38,993 nucleotides of DNA. Origin: a virus. Numbering within the stretch: the first letter of the stretch is position 1; each line of letters starts with the position of its first letter. Position numbers and translations under genes: made by a program. Under the pieces are notes generated by a model that saw only the letters and a program-made list of their open reading frames with translations, did no database searches and had not been told where the DNA came from. The stretch lies in the IMG/VR virus record IMGVR_UViG_3300036795_000443, positions 1-38,993 of that record; one strand, 5' to 3'. Below, in pieces: positions 5,999 through 34,781 of the stretch.

Positions 5999-6451
5999 GT
6001 GGCCACTAGCACGACGATGGTCCCTTCCCTTCCCCTGCCCCTGCCTGCGCTGTCGAGGCCGCACGGGCGTTTTCTTCACTGCGATCGCGGCGCCCCTGTG
6101 TGTGGCGAGTGTTTAGGTTTGCTGGCGCTGGCCCTGGCCGGAGAGCTGGGCTTTGAGCGCCGGGCCGCCGAGGAGATCTCGCTGGAGTTCTACCTGGCGG
6201 CCATGGGGGTGGACCAGGCGTGGGCGCCGGAGGCGCGTGGCCTGCGCGAGCTGACGGCAGAGCTGTGTCCTGCCGCCGAAGGCGATCCGCTGCATGCAAT
6301 GCCGGCGGAAGCGGGAGAGCCCCCGGCGGAGCTTGCCGTGAGTGGGCCGCCGACGCTGGTGGTGACCGCCTTATGGACAGTCGGGGCTGTGATGGCCGGG
6401 CTGGTGGTGCTGGCGGGCTGTGTGCTCTCTGCGATCGTACGGGGGAGTTAG
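5999..6451 (+). CDS. Early protein with C-terminal membrane anchor
   Basis: A 150-aa protein, GTG start with AAGGAG about 9 nt upstream, first gene after the early promoter. The N-terminus holds a CxxC-type pair (HCDRGAPVCGECLG), the middle is acidic and helical, and residues about 119-146 form one hydrophobic helix (LVVTALWTVGAVMAGLVVLA). It would place the N-terminal part in the cytoplasm or periplasm depending on topology. A partial copy of the dispersed repeat core (6289-6303) is read as PLHAMPA. No family recognised. Confidence 0.6.
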   Translation: MATSTTMVPSLPLPLPALSRPHGRFLHCDRGAPVCGECLGLLALALAGELGFERRAAEEISLEFYLAAMGVDQAWAPEARGLRELTAELCPAAEGDPLHAMPAEAGEPPAELAVSGPPTLVVTALWTVGAVMAGLVVLAGCVLSAIVRGS

Positions 6452-6470: not shown

Positions 6471-7508
6471 ATGTTGAGGATCAAGCACCTGACCCACACC
6501 CCGGACGGGCGCAAGCTGACGCCGTCGGAGAAGGGTGTGCTGATGCAGATCGCGGACGACCACAACGAGGACCGCGGCTATGCGTGGCCTTCCGTGAAGA
6601 AGCTGGCGATGCGGGTGGGCTTGAGCGCCGACCAGTGCCGGCGGCTGATCCGGAAGCTGGAAAAAGAGAAGGTCATCCAGTCGCGGCCGCGTCTGCGCGA
6701 CGACAGCGATCTCCAGCTGGCCAACGATTATCGTTTCTGGTTCGACCAACCGTTCGACGCGGCGACTACCGCGAAGACGGACAAACGCCTGCGCCTGCAG
6801 GCGGCGTTACGGGCCAAGCGGCCCCAACAGATGAAGCTCACTCCCCCGGCGGAGTCCGGGAAGCTCTCGACGGTCTCGGCGAGCGCGGCTTCACCCCAGC
6901 AGGAACCGGTCGCGACCCCTGGCATGGATGCAAGGGGTGGGCTGGCGCCGGTGCAAGGGTCCCCCTTGCATGCGCGCAAGGGTCCCCCTGGCATGGATGC
7001 AGGGGTACCCCTGGCATCGGTGCCAGGGCAAACAACGTCAGTACAACAACCAAAGCTTCCTCAAGGACAGCTTTTAGATCAGCTGCCAGTTAATCCCCCC
7101 TACCCCCCGCCAACGGGGGGTGCGATTGCATCGAGCGGAAACGCTTCGCGTGAAAAGCTCGAAGACCCTGAAAAGCCCGACGACCCTGAAAAGCCGGACG
7201 ATCAGGCGAACTTCTCACTGCTGAAGGTGCGGCTGAAGCAGCAGCTGCTGGACGCGCCGAACGCCAAGGGCTTCCGCACCGTGCGGCCGGGCGAGAACGA
7301 CTACGACGCCTGCTTCCGCGACTGGTGGTTCGTGGAGCTGCGGCGAAGCCCGTCGATGGTCCAGGTGATCACGACGGCCGCGGACGAAGCGGCCAGCCGC
7401 GCCGCGCTGACGAAGTACTCCGGCCGGCTGGAGAACCTGGTGCGAGAGTGCTTCGGTGTGCCGCGGCGGACGTTGGTTGTGTTCAAGCTGGACCGCCGGA
7501 GCACTTGA
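6471..7508 (+). CDS. Replication initiator, O-like, with origin inside the gene
   Basis: A 345-aa protein. Residues about 14-85 form a winged-helix DNA-binding domain (LTPSEKGVLMQIADDH, then WPSVKKLAMRVGLSADQCRR) typical of phage replication O-type and helix_turn_helix proteins. The middle (about residues 150-190) is encoded by five tandem 23-bp iterons and is a Pro/Gly-rich linker; next comes a repeated DPEKPDD segment and a conserved C-terminal domain (about 245-345) of unknown detail, possibly the partner-binding domain. ATG 6471 is chosen as start; GTG 6420 is an upstream alternative. No helicase or polymerase is seen nearby, so it would load host replication proteins. The function is inferred from fold and iterons. 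Confidence 0.78.
   Translation: MLRIKHLTHTPDGRKLTPSEKGVLMQIADDHNEDRGYAWPSVKKLAMRVGLSADQCRRLIRKLEKEKVIQSRPRLRDDSDLQLANDYRFWFDQPFDAATTAKTDKRLRLQAALRAKRPQQMKLTPPAESGKLSTVSASAASPQQEPVATPGMDARGGLAPVQGSPLHARKGPPGMDAGVPLASVPGQTTSVQQPKLPQGQLLDQLPVNPPYPPPTGGAIASSGNASREKLEDPEKPDDPEKPDDQANFSLLKVRLKQQLLDAPNAKGFRTVRPGENDYDACFRDWWFVELRRSPSMVQVITTAADEAASRAALTKYSGRLENLVRECFGVPRRTLVVFKLDRRST
6916..7030. repeat. Five tandem 23-bp iterons (probable origin)
   Basis: Five units of exactly 23 bp start at 6916, 6939, 6962, 6985 and 7008. Each is an imperfect palindrome built on CCCCTGGCAT and its partner TGCaAGGG; units 1, 4 and 5 are closest to each other, unit 5 has the perfect arms CCCTGGCA/TGCCAGGG. Because 23 is not a multiple of three, the repeats are read in shifting frames, so selection must act on DNA, not protein. 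This matches lambda-type oriλ inside the O gene. Confidence 0.8.
7031..7120. promoter_or_regulatory. Candidate DNA-unwinding region and hairpin next to iterons
   Basis: Directly after the iterons comes the least GC-rich stretch of this gene (about 7031-7095). It ends in the perfect hairpin CCCCCCG-ccaa-CGGGGGG (7103-7120). Such an AT-richer block beside iterons is where strand opening usually occurs; the hairpin could be a replication or primer element. It is inferred. Confidence 0.45.
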
Positions 7509-7516
7509 AGGTTCTC

Positions 7517-7546
7517 GGCGCGAAGCGCGCCGGCTGCATGCAATGC
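7517..7546 (-). repeat. Dispersed palindromic repeat
   Basis: Reverse orientation copy just after the initiator gene stop (7508), intergenic. Confidence 0.75.
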
Positions 7547-10886: not shown

Positions 10887-11332
10887 CGGGTACGGCGCGG
10901 GGCCCCGGTTACTTCGGAAGCAACGACAAGCAGACGATGAACATCGGCGCGAGGATTCGCGATCTACGAGCGGCGAAGGGTCTCTCCCAGGGCGACATGG
11001 AGCACCGCACGGGGCTGTTGCGCTGCTACTTCTCGCGCGTCGAGAACGGCCACACGAACCCGGGGATCGATACGCTCCAGAAGATTGCCAAGGCTCTCGA
11101 AGTGCCGCTGGCGGAGCTGTTCTGTGAAGCGCCGCCCGGTATGGAACAGGCGGGTGCAGGGGTGGCCCTGGGCGAGGAGGATATCCGCTTCCTGACCCAA
11201 ATTCAGCGCTACACCGCGGACCTGGACGCCGGCGATCGGCAGATCCTGCTGGCCCTCATCCGCAAGTTCACAGGCGCTCCATTGCATGGTGCCGACGCGC
11301 TGCGCGCCGCAGCTGCGAGAAAGGAGCACTGA
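10883..11332 (+). CDS. XRE-family transcriptional regulator with repeat-derived tail
   Basis: A 149-aa protein. Residues 20-80 are a standard XRE domain (IRDLRAAKGLSQGDMEHRTG, then CYFSRVENGHTNPGIDTLQK). A helical region follows (IRFLTQIQRYTADLDAGDRQ). The last 20 residues contain a copy of the dispersed repeat at 11279-11308, read as PLHGADALRAAA. The start is GTG at 10883 (GTGA overlap) or ATG at M19 (10937). It may control the early genes. Related XRE proteins act as repressors or antitoxin-like regulators. Confidence 0.8.
   Translation: MTGTARGPGYFGSNDKQTMNIGARIRDLRAAKGLSQGDMEHRTGLLRCYFSRVENGHTNPGIDTLQKIAKALEVPLAELFCEAPPGMEQAGAGVALGEEDIRFLTQIQRYTADLDAGDRQILLALIRKFTGAPLHGADALRAAAARKEH
11279..11308 (+). 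repeat. Dispersed palindromic repeat, in-frame
   Basis: Forward copy in the C-terminal end of the XRE gene 10883..11332, read as PLHGADALRA. Confidence 0.8.
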
Positions 11333-19768: not shown

Positions 19769-20040
19769 GTGTGCTGAAAGACCTGCCGCAGGTCAATCCG
19801 GCGGCGAAGGACTGCGTGCGCTTTGATCCAAGGGCCCGGCGCTATGAGCTGGTGGTGGGCGGCGAGGTGAAGGCCTCGATCTCCAGCTTCGGGATGACGG
19901 TGCCAGGCACACGGCGGAAGTTCGACGCAGCCGTGAAGGCTGCGCTGCGCGAGCGGCAGATCGACGCGACGGTGGAGAGGCTTTACCCCGAACCACTGCG
20001 TGGAGCAGACGCGCTTCGCGCCGAAGCGACGGAGAAATAA
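19765..20040 (+). CDS. Hypothetical protein with repeat-derived C-terminus
   Basis: A 91-aa protein, GTG start overlapping the previous stop. Its last 15 or so residues (PEPLRGADALRAEATEK) are encoded by a copy of the dispersed palindromic repeat (19993-20022). The N-terminal part is of unknown function. Confidence 0.6.
   Translation: MSVLKDLPQVNPAAKDCVRFDPRARRYELVVGGEVKASISSFGMTVPGTRRKFDAAVKAALRERQIDATVERLYPEPLRGADALRAEATEK
19993..20022 (+). repeat. Dispersed palindromic repeat, in-frame
   Basis: Forward copy at the 3' end of 19765..20040, read as PLRGADALRA. Confidence 0.8.
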
Positions 20041-20264: not shown

Positions 20265-22926
20265 AGGATTGCAGCCAGCGGACGCGCTTCGCGCCAACGG
20301 CGACGGAACGGGCGGCGATGGTACGGGTGGTGATGGCCAGCAGCCGGGCCCGGAGATCTTTACGGCGCTGGACTGGCAGCAGCAGGACCCGGACTATGTG
20401 CCAGGGCGCTACGCGTCGATCGACGTCAGTGACCAGCCGATGTTCGGGCCGGACGAGCTGGCGGGCTACAAGGATGTAATCGACCAGCTGACCGAGTCGG
20501 CCACCAAGACGGACTCGAGCTCGCGGATCTTCGAGATCCTGCAGGCCTGGGAGGCGCGGCTGTTCTCGCGCGGCTACCAGTTCCTACTCTCGGGCAACAA
20601 GGGCTGGGGATTGTTCGGCGGGGCGGGGCGGGCGACGCCGGGCTCCATCATGGCGGAAGCCAATGCGCGCAAGCTTTTCGCCTGCAATGTGTATGGCGCG
20701 CGCGAAGACAAGATTATTGCGGCGCTGAGCCGCGAGGTGCCAGGGCTGAAGTTCGGGCCGAAGGATCCTGATTCGCCGCCGGACCAGACCATGGCCGATG
20801 AGAGCGATACCTACCTCGAGGTCTGGAAGACGGATTCGGACATCAAGGGCGTGCTGGCCAAGATCAGCCGCCTGTTCTACACCGACGGGCGCGCGGTGCT
20901 GTGGACCCGGTCCGTGGCCGACCAGCAGCGCTGGGGTACGGAGGCGGTGACCCAGGATGAGACCTTCGGCGCCGGCGAGGCCGAGGGCGTCACGCCGGAA
21001 AACGAGATGCAGGGCGCAGGCGAGGCGCTCGACGTAGGTGAAGGCGAAGTTCTCCCACCCGGAGTGCTGTCCGACGCGGAGTCGGCGGAGTCGCCGGCGG
21101 TGTGTGAGATCACGACGGCGCACGGCACGCTGGAGAGTAAGCTGCCGATCTACGCGGACGAGATCTTCGACATGGGCCATCTTCGCCTGGCCGAAGAGGT
21201 CGACGTCGATATCCTGCGCGAGCGCTATCCGTGGATCGAGGACAAGATCGAAGCGGGGCAGTCGGCGGCGGGATCGAGCGACCAGTACGACCGCATGGCG
21301 CGCATCAATGTGCGGCTGGCGGTGCAGAACTCGACAGCCTCGGGCGAGACGTTCATGAAGGACGCCACCGAGACCCATACCTGGTTCCGGCCGAGCCAGT
21401 ACCGCATGATCAAAGACAAGACCAAGCGGGCAGCGTGGTACAAGAACTTCCCGCGCGGCTGCCGGATCACGCATGCGGGCTCGCAGTTTGCCTTCGCCCG
21501 CAACGAGGGCATGGACGATCACCTGACGGTGACGCACGCGCGCAAGGGCGATGGCCAGAACCGTCGCGCGATCGGCGCCAACTACCTGCCGCTGCAGAAG
21601 GTGCTGAACCAGAATCTGAGCCTGGTGGTGCGGTATTTTGTGGGCTGCATTCCGCGGCGCTTTGCGGCCGAGGGGCCGATCGACGTCGACGCGCTGAACC
21701 AGCAGTCGAGCGATCCGTCGATTGTGACGCCGGTGCGGTTGGAGAACCCAGCGCAGAGAATCCAGGACCTGACCGGCATCGAGAATGTGCCGACGATCGC
21801 GAGCGGCCTGATGGAGTTTGTGCAGTGGCTGGTGAATGGCGCGCCCGAAGCCATGGACGGCGCGACGCCGACGATGTTTGGCCAGGGCGATGTGGGCACG
21901 GTGGGCGAGTCGCAGCTGAACCGCGACCAGAGCCTGCAGGTGTTTGGCCAGCCCTGGGCGCATAGCTGCAAGGCGCTGGCCCAGGCGGCGACGCAGGCGG
22001 CGATGTCCGCGCGCGCCAACCGCAAGACCGACATCCGGAGCCGCACGCCGGGGCAGAACAAGCTGACCGTGCAGCTGGCCAATCTGAAGGGCAACGCGCT
22101 GTGCTATCCGGTGAGCCTGGAGATCCCGCAGACGCTGGCCGAGCAGGAGGCCCAGACCGCGCAGCTGGTGGAGCAGTCCGCCAACGTGGCGCTGTACAAG
22201 GCGATCGTCGAAGATCCGCTGAACCTTCCGTTCTTCTCCAACATGCCGAGCCTGAGCGGGCTGAACATCCCAGGGCTGGATGCGGTGGAGAAGCAGCAGG
22301 GCGAGTTCGAGCTACTGCTGGAGTCCGGACCGATCGACAACCCGGACCTGCAGCAGTGGCCGGACTACCAGAACTGGCAGCAGCTGCAGCAGGTCGTCGC
22401 CGAGGGTGAAACGCATCCGGAGGCGCAGACGCCCGACGGGGCGAAGTTACTTGCGCAGGCGAAACAGGCGCTTGCGTTGCTGCAGCCTCCGGTACCAGTA
22501 AAGATCTCGAGCGTGCCGGTGGCCCAGGACGGCAGCGAGAACCATGCGGTGGAGGCGGCGGTAACGCTGGCCAAGATCAACTCGCCGGAGGGCCGCAAGC
22601 TGAAGAACGGCGACGCCGAGCAGCAGGCCTGGTACCAGAACCTGTTGCTGCACTGGCAGCAGCATGAGGCGATCAAGAAGAAGCTGACGCCGGTGCCGCC
22701 GCTGATCCCGAAGGTGAGCATCACGGGCGCGATCGACAAGGCTCCGCCGGCAGTGCAGGCGCAGGCGTGGCAGGCGGTGGGCGTGCAGGCCGGGCCGGAT
22801 GACTTCACCAACGCGGGCGAGCTGGTGCCGCACGAGGTGACGGTTGAGAAGGAAGGCGTCGACGCCAGTGGCGTGCCGGTGAAGCAGAAGATCTCGACGG
22901 TGAATCCCGGCGGTCAACTGCGTTGA
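20257..22926 (+). CDS. Portal protein (P22-like)
   Basis: An 889-aa portal, the dodecameric ring through which DNA enters and leaves the head. The size, the long C-terminal region and the sequence ARKLFACNVYGAREDKIIAA then ISRLFYTDGRAVLWTRSVAD match P22-type portals (about 700-850 aa). ATG 20257 is chosen over 20206 because it follows the previous gene. Its N-terminus starts with a dispersed repeat copy (20266-20295, read as LQPADALRANG) followed by a Gly/Asp repeat, an unusual extension for a portal. Confidence 0.85.
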   Translation: MPKGLQPADALRANGDGTGGDGTGGDGQQPGPEIFTALDWQQQDPDYVPGRYASIDVSDQPMFGPDELAGYKDVIDQLTESATKTDSSSRIFEILQAWEARLFSRGYQFLLSGNKGWGLFGGAGRATPGSIMAEANARKLFACNVYGAREDKIIAALSREVPGLKFGPKDPDSPPDQTMADESDTYLEVWKTDSDIKGVLAKISRLFYTDGRAVLWTRSVADQQRWGTEAVTQDETFGAGEAEGVTPENEMQGAGEALDVGEGEVLPPGVLSDAESAESPAVCEITTAHGTLESKLPIYADEIFDMGHLRLAEEVDVDILRERYPWIEDKIEAGQSAAGSSDQYDRMARINVRLAVQNSTASGETFMKDATETHTWFRPSQYRMIKDKTKRAAWYKNFPRGCRITHAGSQFAFARNEGMDDHLTVTHARKGDGQNRRAIGANYLPLQKVLNQNLSLVVRYFVGCIPRRFAAEGPIDVDALNQQSSDPSIVTPVRLENPAQRIQDLTGIENVPTIASGLMEFVQWLVNGAPEAMDGATPTMFGQGDVGTVGESQLNRDQSLQVFGQPWAHSCKALAQAATQAAMSARANRKTDIRSRTPGQNKLTVQLANLKGNALCYPVSLEIPQTLAEQEAQTAQLVEQSANVALYKAIVEDPLNLPFFSNMPSLSGLNIPGLDAVEKQQGEFELLLESGPIDNPDLQQWPDYQNWQQLQQVVAEGETHPEAQTPDGAKLLAQAKQALALLQPPVPVKISSVPVAQDGSENHAVEAAVTLAKINSPEGRKLKNGDAEQQAWYQNLLLHWQQHEAIKKKLTPVPPLIPKVSITGAIDKAPPAVQAQAWQAVGVQAGPDDFTNAGELVPHEVTVEKEGVDASGVPVKQKISTVNPGGQLR
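20266..20295 (+). repeat. Dispersed palindromic repeat, in-frame
   Basis: Forward copy at the N-terminus of the portal gene, read as LQPADALRA; less conserved first half. Confidence 0.72.
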
Positions 22927-24853: not shown

Positions 24854-26194
24854 ATGGCACCAGTGACAGAGCTGGCCTACGAGGCAGTGGAACTTGAAGC
24901 GTTCGTAGACCAGATTCCCGATTACCAGGCGCGCTTCAACAAGCTGCAGCAGCGGCTGTTGAAGGACGGCAAGAAGCACCCCATCTCCAACATGACCTCG
25001 GCGGGCGGCGTGCAGCGCCAGCCGCTGCGGGTTCCATTCCGCGCGCAGGGCGGCGCGGCCATCCAGCAGTTCTCGGCCGACAGCGGGGGCACGATCCCGA
25101 TGTGGCCGAGCGGCACCGGATCGACCACGGATTCGTTCGTGGCGGCGCCGGTCCGCATCATCAACACGTGCACCATCTCCAACCTCACCCAGCAGGCCAC
25201 TGACGGCAAGGATCGCGGCCTGGTGAAGGTGAACAAGGAGGAGATGAAGCAGTCGCTGAAGTCGTTCGAGAACGGCATCGAAGGCCTGTTCAACGGCGAC
25301 GGCTCGGGCACCATCACCAACATCCCGACCACCGCGACGGTCAGCTCGAACTCGGGTAGCGGAGCGCAGACCAGCTACATCAGCGGCCTGAACACGGTGG
25401 CCGGCTTCAGCGATCAGCAGGTGATCCAGGTGCTGCCGGCGGTGGGTGGAACGGCGCGCGGCGTGGCGACGATCAGCTACGTGGATCCGGTCGCGCAGAC
25501 GCTGTACTTCTCGACGGTGCTGCCGGCGACGGGTGGAGCGACGCAGACGGGCGACATCCTGGTGGTGCTGGGAGCAACGGGCACAGCCGGATCGTCGATC
25601 TACGGCAAGAACTACTGGATCGCGAACGGAAGCACGGGCACGATCGCGGGCATCAACAAGGCGCTGTATCCGGGCCGCCTGTCGACCCCGACCATCAACC
25701 TGAACAACACCGGCGCGATCACGCTGGCGATGTCCGGGCGCGTGGAAGCGCTGCTGTCCAGGGCGCGCGGCGACGAGTACGACGAGAACGAGCAGGAGTT
25801 TTATTACACCAACCCTGCCCAGGGCGTCGCGCTCTCGATGAGCTACTACAACACGCTCATCACCCGCGCCGATGACGGTGGCGAGGACGTTCCCGACCTG
25901 GCCAAGCGCAGCCTGCAGAAGCAGTGGGGCGGAAAGCCGGTGGTCTACTCGAACACCTGCGACCCGACCCGGATGGACCGCTTCCGGCCGAGCGACTGGC
26001 ATGTGGGCGTGATGTTCGATACGCGCCTGCATGAGTGGACGCCGGGCAACACGATTGCGCCGCTGCCGGCGGTGACCGCGGGCTACAGCTACTACGACGC
26101 GATCACCTTCGGGTACGAGTGCGGCCTGCAGCTGGTGTGCGCGGATCCCAAGGGACAGTTCTACTTCCAGGGCTTGCCAGTTCCAACTGTGTAG
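24854..26194 (+). CDS. Major capsid protein (probable)
   Basis: A 446-aa protein placed right after the scaffold-like gene and before the GroES-like gene. The N-terminal helix (VELEAFVDQIPDYQARFNKL) and the mixed beta-rich body fit an HK97-fold capsid, which shows little sequence identity between phages. There is a loop-rich Gly/Ser/Thr insert about residues 160-255. CAGGAAACAACATC leads the ATG. The call rests mainly on position and size. Confidence 0.72.
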   Translation: MAPVTELAYEAVELEAFVDQIPDYQARFNKLQQRLLKDGKKHPISNMTSAGGVQRQPLRVPFRAQGGAAIQQFSADSGGTIPMWPSGTGSTTDSFVAAPVRIINTCTISNLTQQATDGKDRGLVKVNKEEMKQSLKSFENGIEGLFNGDGSGTITNIPTTATVSSNSGSGAQTSYISGLNTVAGFSDQQVIQVLPAVGGTARGVATISYVDPVAQTLYFSTVLPATGGATQTGDILVVLGATGTAGSSIYGKNYWIANGSTGTIAGINKALYPGRLSTPTINLNNTGAITLAMSGRVEALLSRARGDEYDENEQEFYYTNPAQGVALSMSYYNTLITRADDGGEDVPDLAKRSLQKQWGGKPVVYSNTCDPTRMDRFRPSDWHVGVMFDTRLHEWTPGNTIAPLPAVTAGYSYYDAITFGYECGLQLVCADPKGQFYFQGLPVPTV

Positions 26195-26210: not shown

Positions 26211-26266
26211 AGGTGGGGCCTTGGTGAAGCCACCTCAGGCTTAAACGAGAATGACTCGGCCCACCT
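26211..26266 (+). ncRNA. Candidate structured RNA between capsid and GroES-like genes
   Basis: Outer stem: AGGTGGG-g-CC (26211-26220) pairs with GGCCCACCT (26258-26266), one bulged G. Inside are two hairpins, GGTG-aagc-CACC (26223-26234) and CGAG-aatga-CTCG (26246-26258). A short TTTT follows at 26270. This three-way-junction layout could be an attenuator or processing site tuning GroES-like expression against capsid. Confidence 0.45.
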
Positions 26267-26289
26267 AGATTTTCAGGAGACAAAGAGAC

Positions 26290-26775
26290 ATGGGAGAGGC
26301 GAAGCAGCGCAAGCTGCGTGAGGCCGAAGTATTGGCGGCGGGGGAGGCACTGGGCGTGCCAATTATCCGGCCGCGCGAGGAAGTGAAGTTCCGGGCGGTA
26401 CTGGACAAGATCTTCGTGGAGGAGATCCCGGTGGCCGAGACAGAGCTCAGCACGAGCGGGCTTGTGCTGTCCGACCAGGCGCACACGCGGCTGTCGCGCA
26501 AGCCGATGACCGGCAAGGTGCTGGCAGTGGGCGATGGCGTGCCCATGGGCGGGATCCTGATGCCGATGCCGTACAAGGTGGGCGACGTAGTGCGCTGCTC
26601 TGAGTACGGCCGCGACTACATCAACCTGCGCAACGGCCGCAACGGAGAGAACGCGTTCGAGAAGGGCGAGGTTCGCACCTTCCTGATCCGCGTCGCCGAC
26701 ACCCACGGCGAACTGGTGCCATTGCATGGAGCGGACGCGCCTGACGGCGCCAATGCAAAGCTGGTGCTGGGCTAA
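26290..26775 (+). CDS. GroES (Cpn10)-like co-chaperonin
   Basis: A 161-aa protein with a Cpn10-type core about residues 34-116: VLDKIFVEEIPVAETELSTS (start strand and mobile-loop area), GLVLSD, then GKVLAVGDGV with GGILMPMPYKVGDVVRCSEY, matching the GroES pattern VGxG…KVGDxVLF. T4 gp31 and RB49 CocO are phage GroES homologues needed for capsid folding. Its place directly after the capsid gene fits that role. The mobile loop contact (IVL/IIL) is not obvious. The C-terminal tail VPLHGADAPDGAN comes from a dispersed repeat (26719-26751). Confidence 0.8.
   Translation: MGEAKQRKLREAEVLAAGEALGVPIIRPREEVKFRAVLDKIFVEEIPVAETELSTSGLVLSDQAHTRLSRKPMTGKVLAVGDGVPMGGILMPMPYKVGDVVRCSEYGRDYINLRNGRNGENAFEKGEVRTFLIRVADTHGELVPLHGADAPDGANAKLVLG
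26719..26751 (+). repeat. Dispersed palindromic repeat, variant hairpin
   Basis: Forward copy near the 3' end of the GroES-like gene. The hairpin is GCGCC-tgac-GGCGC instead of GCGC-ttc-GCGC, a change that preserves base pairing. Confidence 0.8.
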
Positions 26776-27452
26776 TGCCTCGAATCTGTCCCTCTGAGTT
26801 TCAGGACGCGTTCACGCGCGCCGGCGGGACCAACCCGTACGGCGAGCCGGTGTTCAAGATCGTCTGGGCGCAGCACGAGCGGCAGCGTTCGGGCGGCTAC
26901 TGGGCGAAGGATGGCTACCTCGGCTATCGCGACTTCCTGATCGGCGGCAACGAGCCGTGCTGGATGCTGATGATGTGGAAGCCGGCCGCGGCGTTCGGAT
27001 CTCCGGAACGCTGGTACTGGCACCACAAAGACGAGGCGACCGGGCTGCAGGAGCTGGGCGAGTATCCCTACAGCGGGCAATACGTGGTGCTGCACAAGTT
27101 CATTCATCGCGAGATGGTGAACGGCGTCATGGAAGTGGAGCGGCTGGAACTCTCCGGCTTCCTGATCGACGTGGTGCTGCCGGCGGTGAAGTTCTGGGTG
27201 GCGCTGACCGAGGAAGAAAAGGCTGCGGCGCTGCGGCTGGAGATGGAGCTCGAGGAGGATAAGGTCCTGAACGAGATGATGGACGCGAAGGCCGACTGCG
27301 CGCCGGCTTTCCGAGGCGCGACGGCGAGCTTCACGAATCAGGGCTGCCGGACCTCGGTGGTGGCCAAGAAGGTGGAAGTGATGGAGCGCGGGATGCGCCA
27401 GGCGATGGCGTTGGCGGCGAAGATGCCGAAAGGGATGATGCAGCTGAGCTAG
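26775..27452 (+). CDS. Hypothetical head-associated protein
   Basis: A 225-aa protein, 1-nt overlap with GroES-like gene. Aromatic-rich start (FKIVWAQHERQRSGGYWAKD), helix and charged end. It is possibly a head decoration or completion protein. No family recognised. The dispersed repeat (27453-27482) begins immediately after its stop. Confidence 0.58.
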   Translation: MPRICPSEFQDAFTRAGGTNPYGEPVFKIVWAQHERQRSGGYWAKDGYLGYRDFLIGGNEPCWMLMMWKPAAAFGSPERWYWHHKDEATGLQELGEYPYSGQYVVLHKFIHREMVNGVMEVERLELSGFLIDVVLPAVKFWVALTEEEKAAALRLEMELEEDKVLNEMMDAKADCAPAFRGATASFTNQGCRTSVVAKKVEVMERGMRQAMALAAKMPKGMMQLS

Positions 27453-27482
27453 CCATTGCATGGAGCGGACGCGCTTCGCGCC
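27453..27482 (+). repeat. Dispersed palindromic repeat
   Basis: Forward copy directly after the stop of 26775..27452, intergenic. Confidence 0.85.
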
Positions 27483-27581
27483 TCAAACGCGGCACGTTGT
27501 GGTGAGCTCTCCCGGGAGTAAGCTGGGCACAACTGAGCACCCTGGGATGCGCGCTGTTCAGACCCCACCTTTCGAAAGGGC

Positions 27582-28208: not shown

Positions 28209-28216
28209 CTATGCCC

Positions 28217-28247
28217 GGCGCGCAGCGCGTCGGCTGCATGCAATGCC
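28217..28247 (-). repeat. Dispersed palindromic repeat
   Basis: Reverse orientation copy between the 28186 terminator and the 28256 gene start. Confidence 0.8.
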
Positions 28248-28255
28248 AAGGAGAC

Positions 28256-29173
28256 ATGACAATTATGGAATTTCACGACCTGAATCACCCTGAGTCCAGG
28301 GAAAAGACGGCCGCTGCGAATGCGCAGTGGTTTGACCCGCGGGTCGACCGCAACATGCTGCGCACGCCGGACCGCATGATCCACGTGTTCTCGACCTCGG
28401 CGCGCGAGTTTCGCATCGATCGCGCACCGCTGTGGTCGAAGCTGGTGCTGCGCGGCTGTAAGCCGGGCGAGCGCTACGTTACTGTCGCCCATGTGCCCGA
28501 TCCGCTGATCCAGGCGGTGCACAACACCGAGAACGGACGTCAGCGCGGCGAAGCGCATGACGGCTGGCGCGCGGCCGTCGACCTGCTGAACCCGAATAAC
28601 CCGACCAACGATCCGGACTGGAATCCCGGGCCGGAGATGGCCGCGTTCTTCGGCACCAGTGCCGGTGCGGACCTGTTTGCGCAGGGCCTGTTCCTCTCGC
28701 TGAATGAGGTGCCGACGGAGCAGGAGATTGCCAAGGCGGAGGCTCGCCGCGGCAAGCGCTCCGAAGCGCTGATCGCGCATGCGGACTCGCTCGAGAGCAC
28801 GTCGCCCAAGGAGCTGATGGAGTTCCTGAACGGGCCGGACGGCATGGACCTGCGCATGGCGCTGGATTTCTTCGGCGAGGAGCGCGCGTACCACAAGAAG
28901 CGCAAGGCCTCGAGGCTGTGCCCGAACTGTGGTGAGTCGATCGCCTCCGGCGTGGGCTTCCACAAGAGCGCAGCGCTGGGCGTGATCTGCGTTCTCGACT
29001 GGCAGAAGGCTGTCGACGCAGGCGTGAAATCGAAATCTGACGTACCCCAAGGCAAAGAGTGGTGGCCATCACCTGGAGCGGACGCGCCTGACGGCGCCGA
29101 AGCGGATGCAACGGCGACTGCGAAGCCGGCAAAGAAGCCGGCAGCGAAGAAAGCAGCCGGCAAGGCTGCTTAA
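28256..29173 (+). CDS. Hypothetical structural protein with zinc ribbon
   Basis: A 305-aa protein. Residues about 1-110 are unknown (WFDPRVDRNMLRTPDRMIHV), a helical middle follows, and residues 220-245 hold CPNCGES. The C-terminal tail is Ala/Lys-rich (KPAKKPAAKKAAGKAA) with a dispersed repeat (29066-29098) read as PGADAPDGAE. AAGGAG lies too close for ATG 28256 and suits ATG 28265, so either start is possible. No recognised family. Confidence 0.6.
   Translation: MTIMEFHDLNHPESREKTAAANAQWFDPRVDRNMLRTPDRMIHVFSTSAREFRIDRAPLWSKLVLRGCKPGERYVTVAHVPDPLIQAVHNTENGRQRGEAHDGWRAAVDLLNPNNPTNDPDWNPGPEMAAFFGTSAGADLFAQGLFLSLNEVPTEQEIAKAEARRGKRSEALIAHADSLESTSPKELMEFLNGPDGMDLRMALDFFGEERAYHKKRKASRLCPNCGESIASGVGFHKSAALGVICVLDWQKAVDAGVKSKSDVPQGKEWWPSPGADAPDGAEADATATAKPAKKPAAKKAAGKAA
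29066..29098 (+). repeat. Dispersed palindromic repeat, in-frame variant
   Basis: Forward copy in 28256..29173 with the same variant hairpin as 26719-26751, read as SPGADAPDGAE. Confidence 0.75.
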
Positions 29174-29300: not shown

Positions 29301-30104
29301 ATGAGTGTTTCCGGCGTCCAGCGGTATCCGAACCTGCAGGGCATGATGGACCAGTTCCGCTCGCTGGTGAACGATGACGGCGGCGGCAACGATGGGCCGC
29401 AGGGCGGGATCATCGCGACCAACGATGCGCCCTTCACGAAACCGTTCCTGAATAAGGCGATTCGCTGGCTGTACCGCAACCTGCGCAACATCGGCGACCC
29501 GGCGCTGATCATCGACAACTACATCCTGACCGGGATCCCGGCGCTGACACAGCCGAACCCGGCCGTGCAGGTGAGCCTGGGCTTCCTGGGCTACTTCGAC
29601 GGCTTCGCGATGCACAGCGAGTGGAAGCTGCCGGCCGGAGCGATGGGGATCGACCGTCTGTGGGAGCGGGCGACCGGCACAGGGCTGGACTTTGTGGAGA
29701 TGCACGCGCGGCCGGATGGCCTGGCGCCGCGGATGCAGGTGGGCCGCATGGGCGTGTACGAGTGGCGCGGCAATGCGGTGTGGATGCCGGGCGCGCTCCA
29801 GGAGCTCGACCTGCGGATCCGGTGCAAGATCGCGATCCCGCCGGTGCTGGGCAAGAACATCAACTTTGAAAACACGTACGTGCCGATTCTCGATGCCGAG
29901 GACACGATCGTGGACCGGATGCTGGTGTATTACGCGAAGCGATTTGCGCCCGAGCAGAAGGCGGATGCGATGGCCGACTCGGCCGAGTCGCTGAAGGATC
30001 TGCAGCTGGCGATCACGCGGCAGAAGCAGCGCACGCAGAGCGCACGCGCGGACTTCGGCGAAGAGGCCGTGGGCAACTTCGCCGGATGGAACAACGACCT
30101 CTAG
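29301..30104 (+). CDS. Head-tail connector-like structural protein
   Basis: A 267-aa protein with motif-rich middle (NKAIRWLYRNLRNIGDPALI) and a helical C-terminus. Position after the head genes and before the large tail protein fits a podovirus head-completion/adaptor. Family not recognised with certainty. Confidence 0.58.
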   Translation: MSVSGVQRYPNLQGMMDQFRSLVNDDGGGNDGPQGGIIATNDAPFTKPFLNKAIRWLYRNLRNIGDPALIIDNYILTGIPALTQPNPAVQVSLGFLGYFDGFAMHSEWKLPAGAMGIDRLWERATGTGLDFVEMHARPDGLAPRMQVGRMGVYEWRGNAVWMPGALQELDLRIRCKIAIPPVLGKNINFENTYVPILDAEDTIVDRMLVYYAKRFAPEQKADAMADSAESLKDLQLAITRQKQRTQSARADFGEEAVGNFAGWNNDL

Positions 30105-30561: not shown

Positions 30562-33500
30562 ATGCATAACCTCGGCCCTGGCGTGCAGGCCGTCGCTCTT
30601 GAGACTTACGGCGGCCTGGTCACGCTGGCGCGTCCGGAGAACGTTCCGGAGGGCGCCAGCCCGCGCAACTACGACATCGACTATCTGATTGGGAGCGCGC
30701 AGACGCGCGCCCCGCTGCAGAGCGTGTACAGCTACGAGGACGCGGACACCGGCGCGCGAACGCCGGATGCCGCCGTGAATACCACGCTGACGGGCAAGGC
30801 CTGGCAGAACCCGACCAGCGTCTTCGCCGGCGACGGAAGCTACGCGACGTGCAACTGCGCGGGCGGAAGCGATGCGCTGGACGTGACCTCGTTCGCGCTG
30901 GACCTGGAGCCGACGGTCACGCCGATCGGCCTGACGGTGACGCTGACCGGATTCACGCAGTCGGCGGTGACGCTGACGGCGCAGCTGCTGAAGAACGGCG
31001 TGCCGGTGGGTACGGCCAAGCAGGCGGCGCTGCCCTCGACCAACACCAGCGTCATCCTCGGTGGCCCCACCGACCTGTGGGGCACGACGGTCACGAGCGA
31101 CGACGCCAACAATGTGGGCTTCGGCGTGCGGATTACGGCCGATTCGAGCTTCCCCGGAGCGCAGGCGCTGATCGACGCGGTGACGCTCGACGTAAGCCTG
31201 GCGCTGAGCAGCGCGAACTTCAATTTCATTACCACCTTCACGGCCTATGACGGCAGCGTGAAGAACCTCTCAATCGACGCCAACGGCGGCTGGTGGGTGG
31301 AGGATGTCACCAACAATCCCGGCGAGCTGAGCCTGCTGCCGGTGCCGGTGACGCCGGGCTCGTTTGCGAGCGCGGTGAATGGGCCGGGCGTGGAGTACTT
31401 CGCCTTCACCGACCTGACCACGGGAAGCGATCTGCCGCGGCAGTACACGCCGGAATGGATTGACCGGATCTCGCAGGTGGGGCCAGGTGCGGCGCCGGTG
31501 TTTGCGGTGTCGACCAATGCGGCCGGAACCCCGGCGGTGATTACGGCCTTCGCCGTGAGCGGCGATGTGGTGACCCTGACGGCGGACAACAGCTTCAGCG
31601 CGGGCCAGCCGGTGCTGTTCTCCGGGCTGACGCCGGCAGCTTTCCTGAACGGGCAGACGCTGGTGGTGCTGGGCTCGGGCCTGTCAGGAACGCAGTTCGA
31701 GGTGGCCTTCACGCACGCCGACGTGGGAACGACGGCCGACAGCGGAAAGGCCACGCCGCAGACCAACTATCCGATCGCGACGATTACGCAGCCGGCGGCG
31801 CAGTCGCGCGGATTCTCGTACTTCCTGCAGTCGACGGGGCCGGGCTCGACCTCGCCAGGCAACGTGATCACGGCCTACTACTCGGACTCGACGACTTCGA
31901 GCGCGGACCAGGACCTGGTGGACGCGTTCAACAGCGGCAACGCGGTCTATCTCTACTTCTCATTTACGGGCACGCCGGTGCCTTTCGGCCCGCTGACGGT
32001 GCAGGTGACCAGCGTGGGCCTGGGCTCGCCGCCGGACCAGCCGCGCCAGTTCTACTACTTCACCTTCACGACGACGAACGCCGCGGCCTACACGCTGTAT
32101 GCGGGCAGCGGGCATTCCGGCTATACCGCGAACTACCAGCGCACGCTGGCGACGATGACGACGAGCGAGCCGGTGCCGGTGCTGGGTGTGGGCTCGAGCG
32201 CGACGATCGCGGGCACGAGCGTGAGCAACTACGACTCGACCTGGCCGATCGCGCAGGCGCTGAACTCCGGAGCGATGGCGATCACGCAGACGTCGCTGAC
32301 CGGCGGCGTGGCGACTTACAGCTACACGGTGGTGAGTGGCGCGAACCCGACGGCGGAGCAGCTGGTGACGATCACCGGGACGCTGAACGCCAACGGAATG
32401 CTGAACGGCGCAGACCTGGTGATTGCAGGCGTTATCGGCACGAACCAGGGCACCTTCACGGTGAACGGCTTCAGCTCGGCGCAGGATTATCCGGTTGCGG
32501 CCGAGCAGGGCCAGGCGACGACGGCCGGCACCGAGTTCAGCTTCGATCCGGGCCTCGAGACGCTGGGCAGCTCGACGAGCCCGATCTATGGCGCCTCGTC
32601 CGGCGGATACCTGATCTTCGCCGGCAACGGGCAGTATCTTTCCGCAGGCACCAAGCAGGGTGTGGTGTTCTTCATCACGCGCAACGGCTACTGGACGACG
32701 CCGAGCGCGCCGGTCACGTTCTCCATCCCCGAAAACTCAACCGCGATTTTAGCCAGCCAGATCCCGATCGGGCCGCCCAACGTGGTGGCGCGCGGGATCG
32801 CGTTTACGGAGAGCGGGGCGAACAATGTGCCGGGCGCGAACTTCTTCACCCTGCCGACGCCGCAGCAGTACATCGTCAACGGGGTGACCTACACCGCGAG
32901 CTCGCTGTTCGTGATGGACAACACGTCGACGACGGCGAGCTTCAGCTTCCCGGACTCGGAGCTGCTGCAGGCCGAGGCGATCGATCAGCAGGGCAACGAT
33001 CTCTTCAACCTGCTTGAGATCGGCAACCCCGGGTGGATCGCGAAGTATGCCAGCCGCAACGCCTACGGGCTGTGCCAGAACAAGGTACAGAACTTCGTCA
33101 ACCTGAGCTTCGACGGCGGCTACCTGCCGGGCGTGCAGCTGACGCCGCTGGGCTGGACCGCGCCGGACCAGTACGGCGAGCTGCTGGTTTCGCCGATCTT
33201 CGGCAACTCGTACTACATCAAGAACTCGACCACGGGAACACTGGCGATGGCCGGGATGATCGCGCAGGCGGCATACCAGGACGCGTACCAGCAGCCGATC
33301 CTGGCCGCGAATACCGGCTACAGCGTGCGCGTGACGGCGCGGGCCCCTTCCGGGCTCACCACCGGCAGCCTGGTGGTGGACCTGGTGGCCAACGGGGTGA
33401 GCTATGGCAGCTTCACCACGCCGTTCGCGAACCTGACGACGGCCATGCAGACGCTGACTGGAACGTTGCTGACGAACGGGTTAGCGACCGTACCCGGAGC

Positions 33501-34764
33501 GCTGCAGGTGCGGGCGTATGCCAGCGGCGCGGGAGCGGGTGCGGACGTCGAGATCGACCGCGTGGAGCTCTTTCCCACAGCCGTCCCGGTGCTTTCCACA
33601 ACCGTGTTCTTCAGCTACGCGAACGATCTGGAGAGCGTGGACGCGGTGACCGGCGGGGTGGTGTTCGACAGCGAGAACCAGCAGCCGGTGAACGGCGCCA
33701 AGGTGCTGTACGACACCTTCTACGGCCTGAAGGGCAGCTCGATGTACTCGCTGCAGAGCAGCCCGAACCTGGAGCCGGCGCAGTGGAACGAGCCGGAGGT
33801 GGCGCAGAAGGTGGGCACCTGCGGGATCAACGCCTACGACCAGGGCGAGCAGTGGCTGGTGACGGCCTGCAGGAACGGGCTCTACCTGTTCGAGGGCGGG
33901 CAGCCGGGCAAGATCATGGAAGAGATCCTGCAGATCTGGAACGCGATCAACTGGCGCGCCGGCAAGGCGATCTGGGTGACGAACGACGTGGTGAACCGGC
34001 GGCTGTATGTGGGCGTGCCGCTGCCGACGCCGAACTTCTGGCTGCCGGACGCGCCGGCGAACCCGGCGCCGTCGACGCCCAACGTCGTGCTGATGATGAA
34101 CTACCAGGGCCTGGACACGGCCGAGGCGATCAAGGGCAGCCCGCAGATGCACACCACGATGTTCGGGGCGCTGAACGCGATCGACATGCGGCGGAAGTGG
34201 TCGATCTGGCAGATCCAGAGTCCGTACGGCGCGGTGGTGAGCTCGACCGGACAGGCGGCGGGAAGCTTTGCGACCGGCGAGGTCAACATCCTCGATGGCG
34301 AGATGCGCTTCTGCAACGGGATCGCGAGCTCCAAGGTCTACCGGCTGAACACGGAGCTGGGGCCGAAGGAGATCCCGACCGACGATGGAGCGCCGCTGAA
34401 CTCGCTGTACACGACGTACGGCTGGGTGGCGCAGTCCAAGGCGGCGCAGATGCCGATGCTGGGACTGTTCCGCAAGCTGTGGGGCCTCATGACGCACCAG
34501 ATCAGCGGCGCCGGCACGTTGAAGGTGCGGCTGCTGCCGAACGTGCTACTGGGCCCGGACGATGACGATTCCGACTACTACCCGTGGACGCTGCCGGGCG
34601 GCTTTGTGCTGACCGATCCGTGCACGCGGACGCGTGAGGCGCCACTGAACTTCGCGGGCACGCGAACGTTCCTGGAGTTTTCGACCACCGGACGGATGGA
34701 CCTGAGCGACGTGGTGCTGGTGGGCCGCAAGCATCCCCACAACCAGCTCACAGGGCAACGCTAA
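30562..34764 (+). CDS. Large tail-nozzle/hub-like virion protein
   Basis: A 1400-aa protein, the largest gene. The opening segment (YGGLVTLARPENVPEGASPR, NYDIDYLIG) matches the start of beta-propeller tail-nozzle proteins of podoviruses, and the end (about 1080-1400) has propeller-like blades (FFSYANDLESVDAVTGG, WGLMTHQISGAGTLKVRLLP). Between lie Gly/Ser/Thr-rich beta regions and a carbohydrate-binding-module-like stretch near 960-1060 (GYSVRVTARAPSGLTTGSLV). At 1400 aa it is about twice the usual nozzle, so an insertion may add host-binding modules. Confidence 0.7.
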   Translation: MHNLGPGVQAVALETYGGLVTLARPENVPEGASPRNYDIDYLIGSAQTRAPLQSVYSYEDADTGARTPDAAVNTTLTGKAWQNPTSVFAGDGSYATCNCAGGSDALDVTSFALDLEPTVTPIGLTVTLTGFTQSAVTLTAQLLKNGVPVGTAKQAALPSTNTSVILGGPTDLWGTTVTSDDANNVGFGVRITADSSFPGAQALIDAVTLDVSLALSSANFNFITTFTAYDGSVKNLSIDANGGWWVEDVTNNPGELSLLPVPVTPGSFASAVNGPGVEYFAFTDLTTGSDLPRQYTPEWIDRISQVGPGAAPVFAVSTNAAGTPAVITAFAVSGDVVTLTADNSFSAGQPVLFSGLTPAAFLNGQTLVVLGSGLSGTQFEVAFTHADVGTTADSGKATPQTNYPIATITQPAAQSRGFSYFLQSTGPGSTSPGNVITAYYSDSTTSSADQDLVDAFNSGNAVYLYFSFTGTPVPFGPLTVQVTSVGLGSPPDQPRQFYYFTFTTTNAAAYTLYAGSGHSGYTANYQRTLATMTTSEPVPVLGVGSSATIAGTSVSNYDSTWPIAQALNSGAMAITQTSLTGGVATYSYTVVSGANPTAEQLVTITGTLNANGMLNGADLVIAGVIGTNQGTFTVNGFSSAQDYPVAAEQGQATTAGTEFSFDPGLETLGSSTSPIYGASSGGYLIFAGNGQYLSAGTKQGVVFFITRNGYWTTPSAPVTFSIPENSTAILASQIPIGPPNVVARGIAFTESGANNVPGANFFTLPTPQQYIVNGVTYTASSLFVMDNTSTTASFSFPDSELLQAEAIDQQGNDLFNLLEIGNPGWIAKYASRNAYGLCQNKVQNFVNLSFDGGYLPGVQLTPLGWTAPDQYGELLVSPIFGNSYYIKNSTTGTLAMAGMIAQAAYQDAYQQPILAANTGYSVRVTARAPSGLTTGSLVVDLVANGVSYGSFTTPFANLTTAMQTLTGTLLTNGLATVPGALQVRAYASGAGAGADVEIDRVELFPTAVPVLSTTVFFSYANDLESVDAVTGGVVFDSENQQPVNGAKVLYDTFYGLKGSSMYSLQSSPNLEPAQWNEPEVAQKVGTCGINAYDQGEQWLVTACRNGLYLFEGGQPGKIMEEILQIWNAINWRAGKAIWVTNDVVNRRLYVGVPLPTPNFWLPDAPANPAPSTPNVVLMMNYQGLDTAEAIKGSPQMHTTMFGALNAIDMRRKWSIWQIQSPYGAVVSSTGQAAGSFATGEVNILDGEMRFCNGIASSKVYRLNTELGPKEIPTDDGAPLNSLYTTYGWVAQSKAAQMPMLGLFRKLWGLMTHQISGAGTLKVRLLPNVLLGPDDDDSDYYPWTLPGGFVLTDPCTRTREAPLNFAGTRTFLEFSTTGRMDLSDVVLVGRKHPHNQLTGQR

Positions 34765-34781
34765 CCATTGCATGGAGCGGA
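34765..34781 (+). repeat. Truncated dispersed repeat
   Basis: First half only (CCATTGCATGGAGCGGA), beginning at the base after the stop of the large tail gene; the hairpin half is missing. Confidence 0.65.

Follow-up and report, generated by a model that had tools for sequence, protein, structure and literature searches.

Why would a soil virus carry a GroES-like gene directly behind the gene of its major capsid protein (MCP), and what might the product do there? We approached this question in the window, that is, the whole stretch of 38,993 nucleotides analyzed here (IMG/VR record IMGVR_UViG_3300036795_000443). Homology, predicted fold, synteny, and selection strongly support that the open reading frame at 26290-26775 is GroES-like and tied to the capsid gene. 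The reading that we favor, to which we give a probability of roughly 0.75, is that its product is a phage co-chaperonin of the Cpn10/GroES family, capping the host GroEL for abundant late proteins, chiefly the capsid protein. The features of the locus are as follows.

24854..26194, + strand: major capsid protein gene (446 aa, 47.6 kDa), named from synteny and distant homologues
26211..26266, + strand: stem-loop between the MCP gene and cpn10 (post-coat-gene hairpin)
26275..26280, + strand: Shine-Dalgarno sequence AGGAGA, 9 nt 5' of the cpn10 ATG
26290..26775, + strand: cpn10/GroES-like gene (161 aa, 17.4 kDa, ATG start)
26290..26385, + strand: N-terminal extension (aa 1-32), modeled as partly helical
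26386..26718, + strand: Cpn10 beta-barrel core (aa 33-143); VIA-align places residues 33..143 onto 1wnr with Z 10.4
26419..26511, + strand: mobile-loop region (aa 44-74) with the S-G-L-V-L motif, LVL at 26461-26469
26533..26580, + strand: roof hairpin (aa 82-97), 16 residues, present
26719..26755, + strand: repeat copy that accounts for the greater part of the C-terminal tail (aa 144-161, 26719-26772)
26775..27452, + strand: next gene (225 aa), its start overlapping the cpn10 stop (TAATG)

Identification of the Cpn10 Protein

The recognizable Cpn10 core reported in the earlier note on this DNA was borne out by profile searches, in which the open reading frame matched PF00166 (Cpn10) at aa 33-113 with E=1.3e-8 and 35.2 bits, exceeding the curated cut-off of 21.1 bits, and the GroES family phrog_3188 at aa 33-106 with E=7.6e-8. 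A weaker match was obtained with phrog_931, annotated as head morphogenesis (E=1.4e-4), and the best PDB sequence matches were all Cpn10/GroES proteins. Across the family, the Pfam domain was detected in all 22 diverse members scanned (best E 8.1e-11). An AlphaFold2 model built from nine relatives predicted the barrel fairly well (pLDDT about 80 at aa 70-140), and Foldseek paired this model with solved Cpn10 structures at a probability of 1.00. Cellular Cpn10s ranked first in VIA-align, with Z up to 10.4 (1wnr, 1p3h) over ~85-90 residues, whereas T4 gp31 came below them, at Z about 8 (Foldseek/VIA-align). The gene has also been under purifying selection, with dN/dS of 0.06-0.22 between near relatives. 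Its start, MGEAxQRK, is common to the window copy and L001, the relative with 94% MCP identity, and the GAGAC ahead of the start codon is invariant across aligned relatives.

The mobile loop carries S-G-L-V-L at aa 56-60, the counterpart of G-G-I-V-L in E. coli GroES, and the loop region comprises 31 residues, against 25 between the same flanking positions of the E. coli protein. AlphaFold2 assigned pLDDT <50 to aa 50-69; the structure prediction that had been proposed as a check on the loop thus gave a predicted disordered stretch with the motif in place. The roof hairpin is nearly as long as that of E. coli GroES (16 vs. 17 residues). L001 has the loop motif G-G-I-I-V, and in several relatives the hydrophobic tripeptide has been reshaped (DIL, QII, LTL), so that GroEL binding should not be assumed for every relative. 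The roof region takes one of two lengths across the family, 16 or 8 residues, with nine relatives being roofless (L026, L028, L030, L031, L039, L040, L041, L049, and L053); on the MCP tree the distribution of these states needs four changes, two of which are forced by well-supported branches. Compared with bacterial GroES (PF00166), the window protein exhibits the same fold, a mobile loop with a hydrophobic tripeptide, a roof of near-equal size, and a single Cpn10 domain, but it differs in the loop longer by 6 residues, the 32-residue N-terminal extension, the repeat-derived tail, and the lack of a groEL partner in the phage.

Linkage to the Capsid Gene

The name of the capsid gene rests on the order portal-scaffold-MCP gene found in the relatives and on its two most distant homologues, L101 and L102, which match phrog_14242, 'major head protein' (E=1.1e-10 and 5.7e-7); L101 also matches the MCP of Arthrobacter phage Jasmine. 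One homologue of the large protein encoded two genes 5' of the MCP matches the 'portal' family phrog_156 (E=1.6e-4). The window copy of the MCP gave no direct family match in HMM searches of Pfam and PHROG, its AlphaFold2 model (mean pLDDT 38) was too poor for its fold search to be relied on, and no match was returned by PDB profile searches with the MCP and with the portal or by hhalign of both profiles against single sequences of P22 and PBR31. The placement of cpn10 directly after a capsid gene, as the earlier note had described it, is upheld: the gap is 95 nt, and the capsid name is backed through the homologues to phrog_14242.

The same note had placed a structured RNA between the two genes, and the 95-nt spacer indeed folds at -27.4 kcal/mol (z -2.25), a feature of a kind already annotated in P22. 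In nearly all relatives a hairpin lies right 3' of the MCP stop, its sequence differing from clade to clade; the P22 record has a stem-loop annotated at the equivalent position as 'similar in location to stem-loops in phage HK97 and phage lambda', and the order portal, scaffold-like gene, MCP, stem-loop also matches P22. As an Rfam search of the hairpin found no family and a simple scan found no intrinsic terminator there, we refer to it as a post-coat stem-loop and not as a proven terminator.

Relatives of the MCP were gathered from IMG/VR and from genomes, and only contigs that continue for 900 nt or more past the MCP were counted. Among these, 38 of the 40 related contigs encode a Cpn10 that follows the MCP homologue at a distance of no more than about 0.7 kb, and the pairing holds from 94% down to 38-39% MCP identity, being absent only from the most distant pair, L101 and L102. 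In L097 and L098, for which the fetched stretches were short, Cpn10 follows at about 1.5 kb. The pairing is no chance association. In part of the clade, 0.3-0.7 kb of sequence, either a gap or another gene, lies between MCP and cpn10, and because of such intervening stretches (1.5 kb in two relatives) the linkage is to the late head module and not strictly to the MCP. On the other side of cpn10, the 225-aa gene is kept in those relatives that have sequence there.

Phage GroES genes are well known (PMC7185714, PMC4294664), with carriers that include Pseudoalteromonas phage B8b, Shewanella phage 1/44, Xanthomonas phage PBR31, jumbo phages, and virioplankton. In PBR31 the gene precedes terL, and Shewanella phage 1/44 and Vibrio phage 2.096.O have it between the tail-completion and major tail genes; it directly follows the MCP in none of the four cultured phages examined, nor in any case in PMC4294664. 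A tblastn search of the window Cpn10 family against 50,697 phage records detected no similarity, E. coli GroES was matched by 89 records of the phage collection, some of which are evidently bacterial in origin, and the cultured phage collection held no near relative of the window clade. What is new is thus this member, the clade-wide linkage to the MCP, and the series of roofed and roofless forms, phage GroES itself being known. Across an entire clade of uncultured phages from soil, a phage GroES is seen to accompany one particular capsid gene.

Proposed Role and Alternative Readings

According to the favored reading, the cpn10 product would be expressed from the late operon immediately behind the capsid protein and would assemble into a seven-membered ring, as expected from its family. 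The S-G-L-V-L mobile loop would then let this lid cap the host GroEL, in place of the host GroES or besides it, and GroEL with the phage lid would fold the capsid protein, which is needed in very large amounts, and possibly further late proteins. Gene order suggests the capsid protein as the main client.

The known precedent is T4 gp31, which is needed for the capsid protein gp23 of ~56 kDa and has loops of 22 residues, vs. 16 in GroES, and no roof, a combination thought to make room for gp23 (PMC6318259). The window protein resembles gp31 as a phage-encoded Cpn10 fold with a longer loop, tied to capsid production in a phage without its own GroEL; it differs by having a roof, and the two share only a weak sequence match (phrog_931). 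A lid of the gp31 type, giving the GroEL chamber more room for a capsid protein that is oversized or folds slowly, would accommodate the loop extension of 6 residues, the same increment as reported for gp31 (PMC6318259), as well as the weak phrog_931 match and the roofless state of some relatives. This reading nonetheless seems unlikely to us, since the window copy has retained the roof, its capsid protein of 47.6 kDa is smaller than gp23, and cellular Cpn10s match it better than gp31 does. The suggestion in the earlier note of a capsid that depends on a modified GroEL cavity consequently fares unevenly: the longer loop agrees with it, and the roof and the size of the capsid protein speak against it, so that a modified cavity is not needed to explain cpn10. 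The gene would be explained as well by a lid that the phage contributes to the host GroEL when capsid output is high.

The product might instead serve late infection in general, with tail or other proteins as its main clients and the place after the MCP reflecting operon convenience. The varied locations of GroES genes in cultured phages are compatible with this, but the conservation of the post-MCP position from 94% down to 38% MCP identity speaks against it, and we regard it as improbable. Less probable still is a Cpn10-derived structural protein of the head, for decoration or completion, that no longer works with GroEL. Some phages do have head decoration genes after the capsid gene, and the loop tips vary among the relatives; however, the window copy retains the GroEL-facing parts, namely the S-G-L-V-L loop and the roof hairpin, L001 likewise retains its loop (G-G-I-I-V) and roof hairpin, the loop is predicted to be disordered like that of free GroES, and every member scanned has the Pfam Cpn10 match. 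The co-chaperonin capping host GroEL accordingly remains our preferred interpretation.

A more speculative extension, which we consider doubtful, is that the co-chaperonin is the dedicated, co-inherited partner of one capsid family, with switching between roofed and roofless forms tuning the GroEL chamber to each capsid protein. If so, the roofed (16-residue) and roofless (8-residue) lids would constitute a natural series between GroES and gp31. The loss of the roof has long been credited to the need of gp31 to fold a large capsid protein, and the lids of this clade would allow a direct test of whether roof loss follows the client.

The C-Terminal Tail and an Interspersed Repeat

The tail begins exactly at the start of a 37-nt repeat, at codon 144 (26719), and homology of the window Cpn10 to its relatives stops at aa 142-143. 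Alignments of the relatives showed the 18-residue tail in none of them, and in L001 the repeat site within cpn10 is empty. The tail (aa 144-161) had pLDDT <50 in the AlphaFold2 model and is predicted to be disordered. The repeat, CCATTGCATGGAGCGGACGCGCTTCGCGCC, occurs in the window in 13 full or partial copies, in both orientations:

805-830, 1342-1374, 6286-6302, 7123-7150, 7512-7545, 11279-11314, 19993-20026: copies of the repeat
20267-20299, 26719-26755, 27453-27489, 28212-28246, 29066-29101, 34765-34781: further copies of the repeat

For seven of these 13 copies, a called stop codon is no more than 20 nt away; random placement would give this with a probability of about 5e-5, as judged on the gene calls made in this analysis. 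The repeat is nearly private to the window phage: L001 has a single copy, located where another gene ends (8729), and this copy matches the window copy at 29066. An origin as a host-genome element was rejected, the repeat not being present in four Acidobacteria metagenome-assembled genomes (MAGs), and L060, which shares a 19-base match, proved to be an unrelated phage with no full repeat.

The tail is probably incidental, a passenger left by recent insertion of a phage-specific interspersed repeat, because that insertion is missing from the relatives. The earlier description of the tail as repeat-derived therefore stands; as a sign of a special mechanism it does not, the insertion being lineage-specific and without conservation, and the idea of a functional tail was dropped for lack of support, the relatives all being without it. 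The case illustrates how a coding gene can be extended by an interspersed repeat of a phage with no disturbance to the genes on either side.

The Phage, Its Probable Host, and the Putative GroEL Partner

The phage is probably temperate, given its genes for an integrase, a CI-like repressor, an O-like replication protein, and terminase. Its host is probably a member of the Acidobacteria: all four genome matches of the MCP were to Acidobacteria MAGs (L055-L058, one of them Granulicella), which suggests this phylum as host of the clade. Each of these MAGs has one strong groES match beside groEL, and three of the four have a second, weak Cpn10 of the phage type; the window Cpn10 is only about 35% identical to the GroES of MAGs carrying relatives. 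Cpn60/GroEL was found neither in the window nor in 15 other virus records, many of them fragments (14 relatives and L060).

Elsewhere in the window, a 1400-aa protein without a family match is encoded at 30562-34764, 3' of the gene at 29301, and by its position is perhaps a tail protein. Short palindromic units (CCCCTGGCATCGGTGCCAGGGG-like) are clustered at 6916-7028 inside the putative O-like replication-initiation gene, where they possibly constitute a replication origin as in lambda O.
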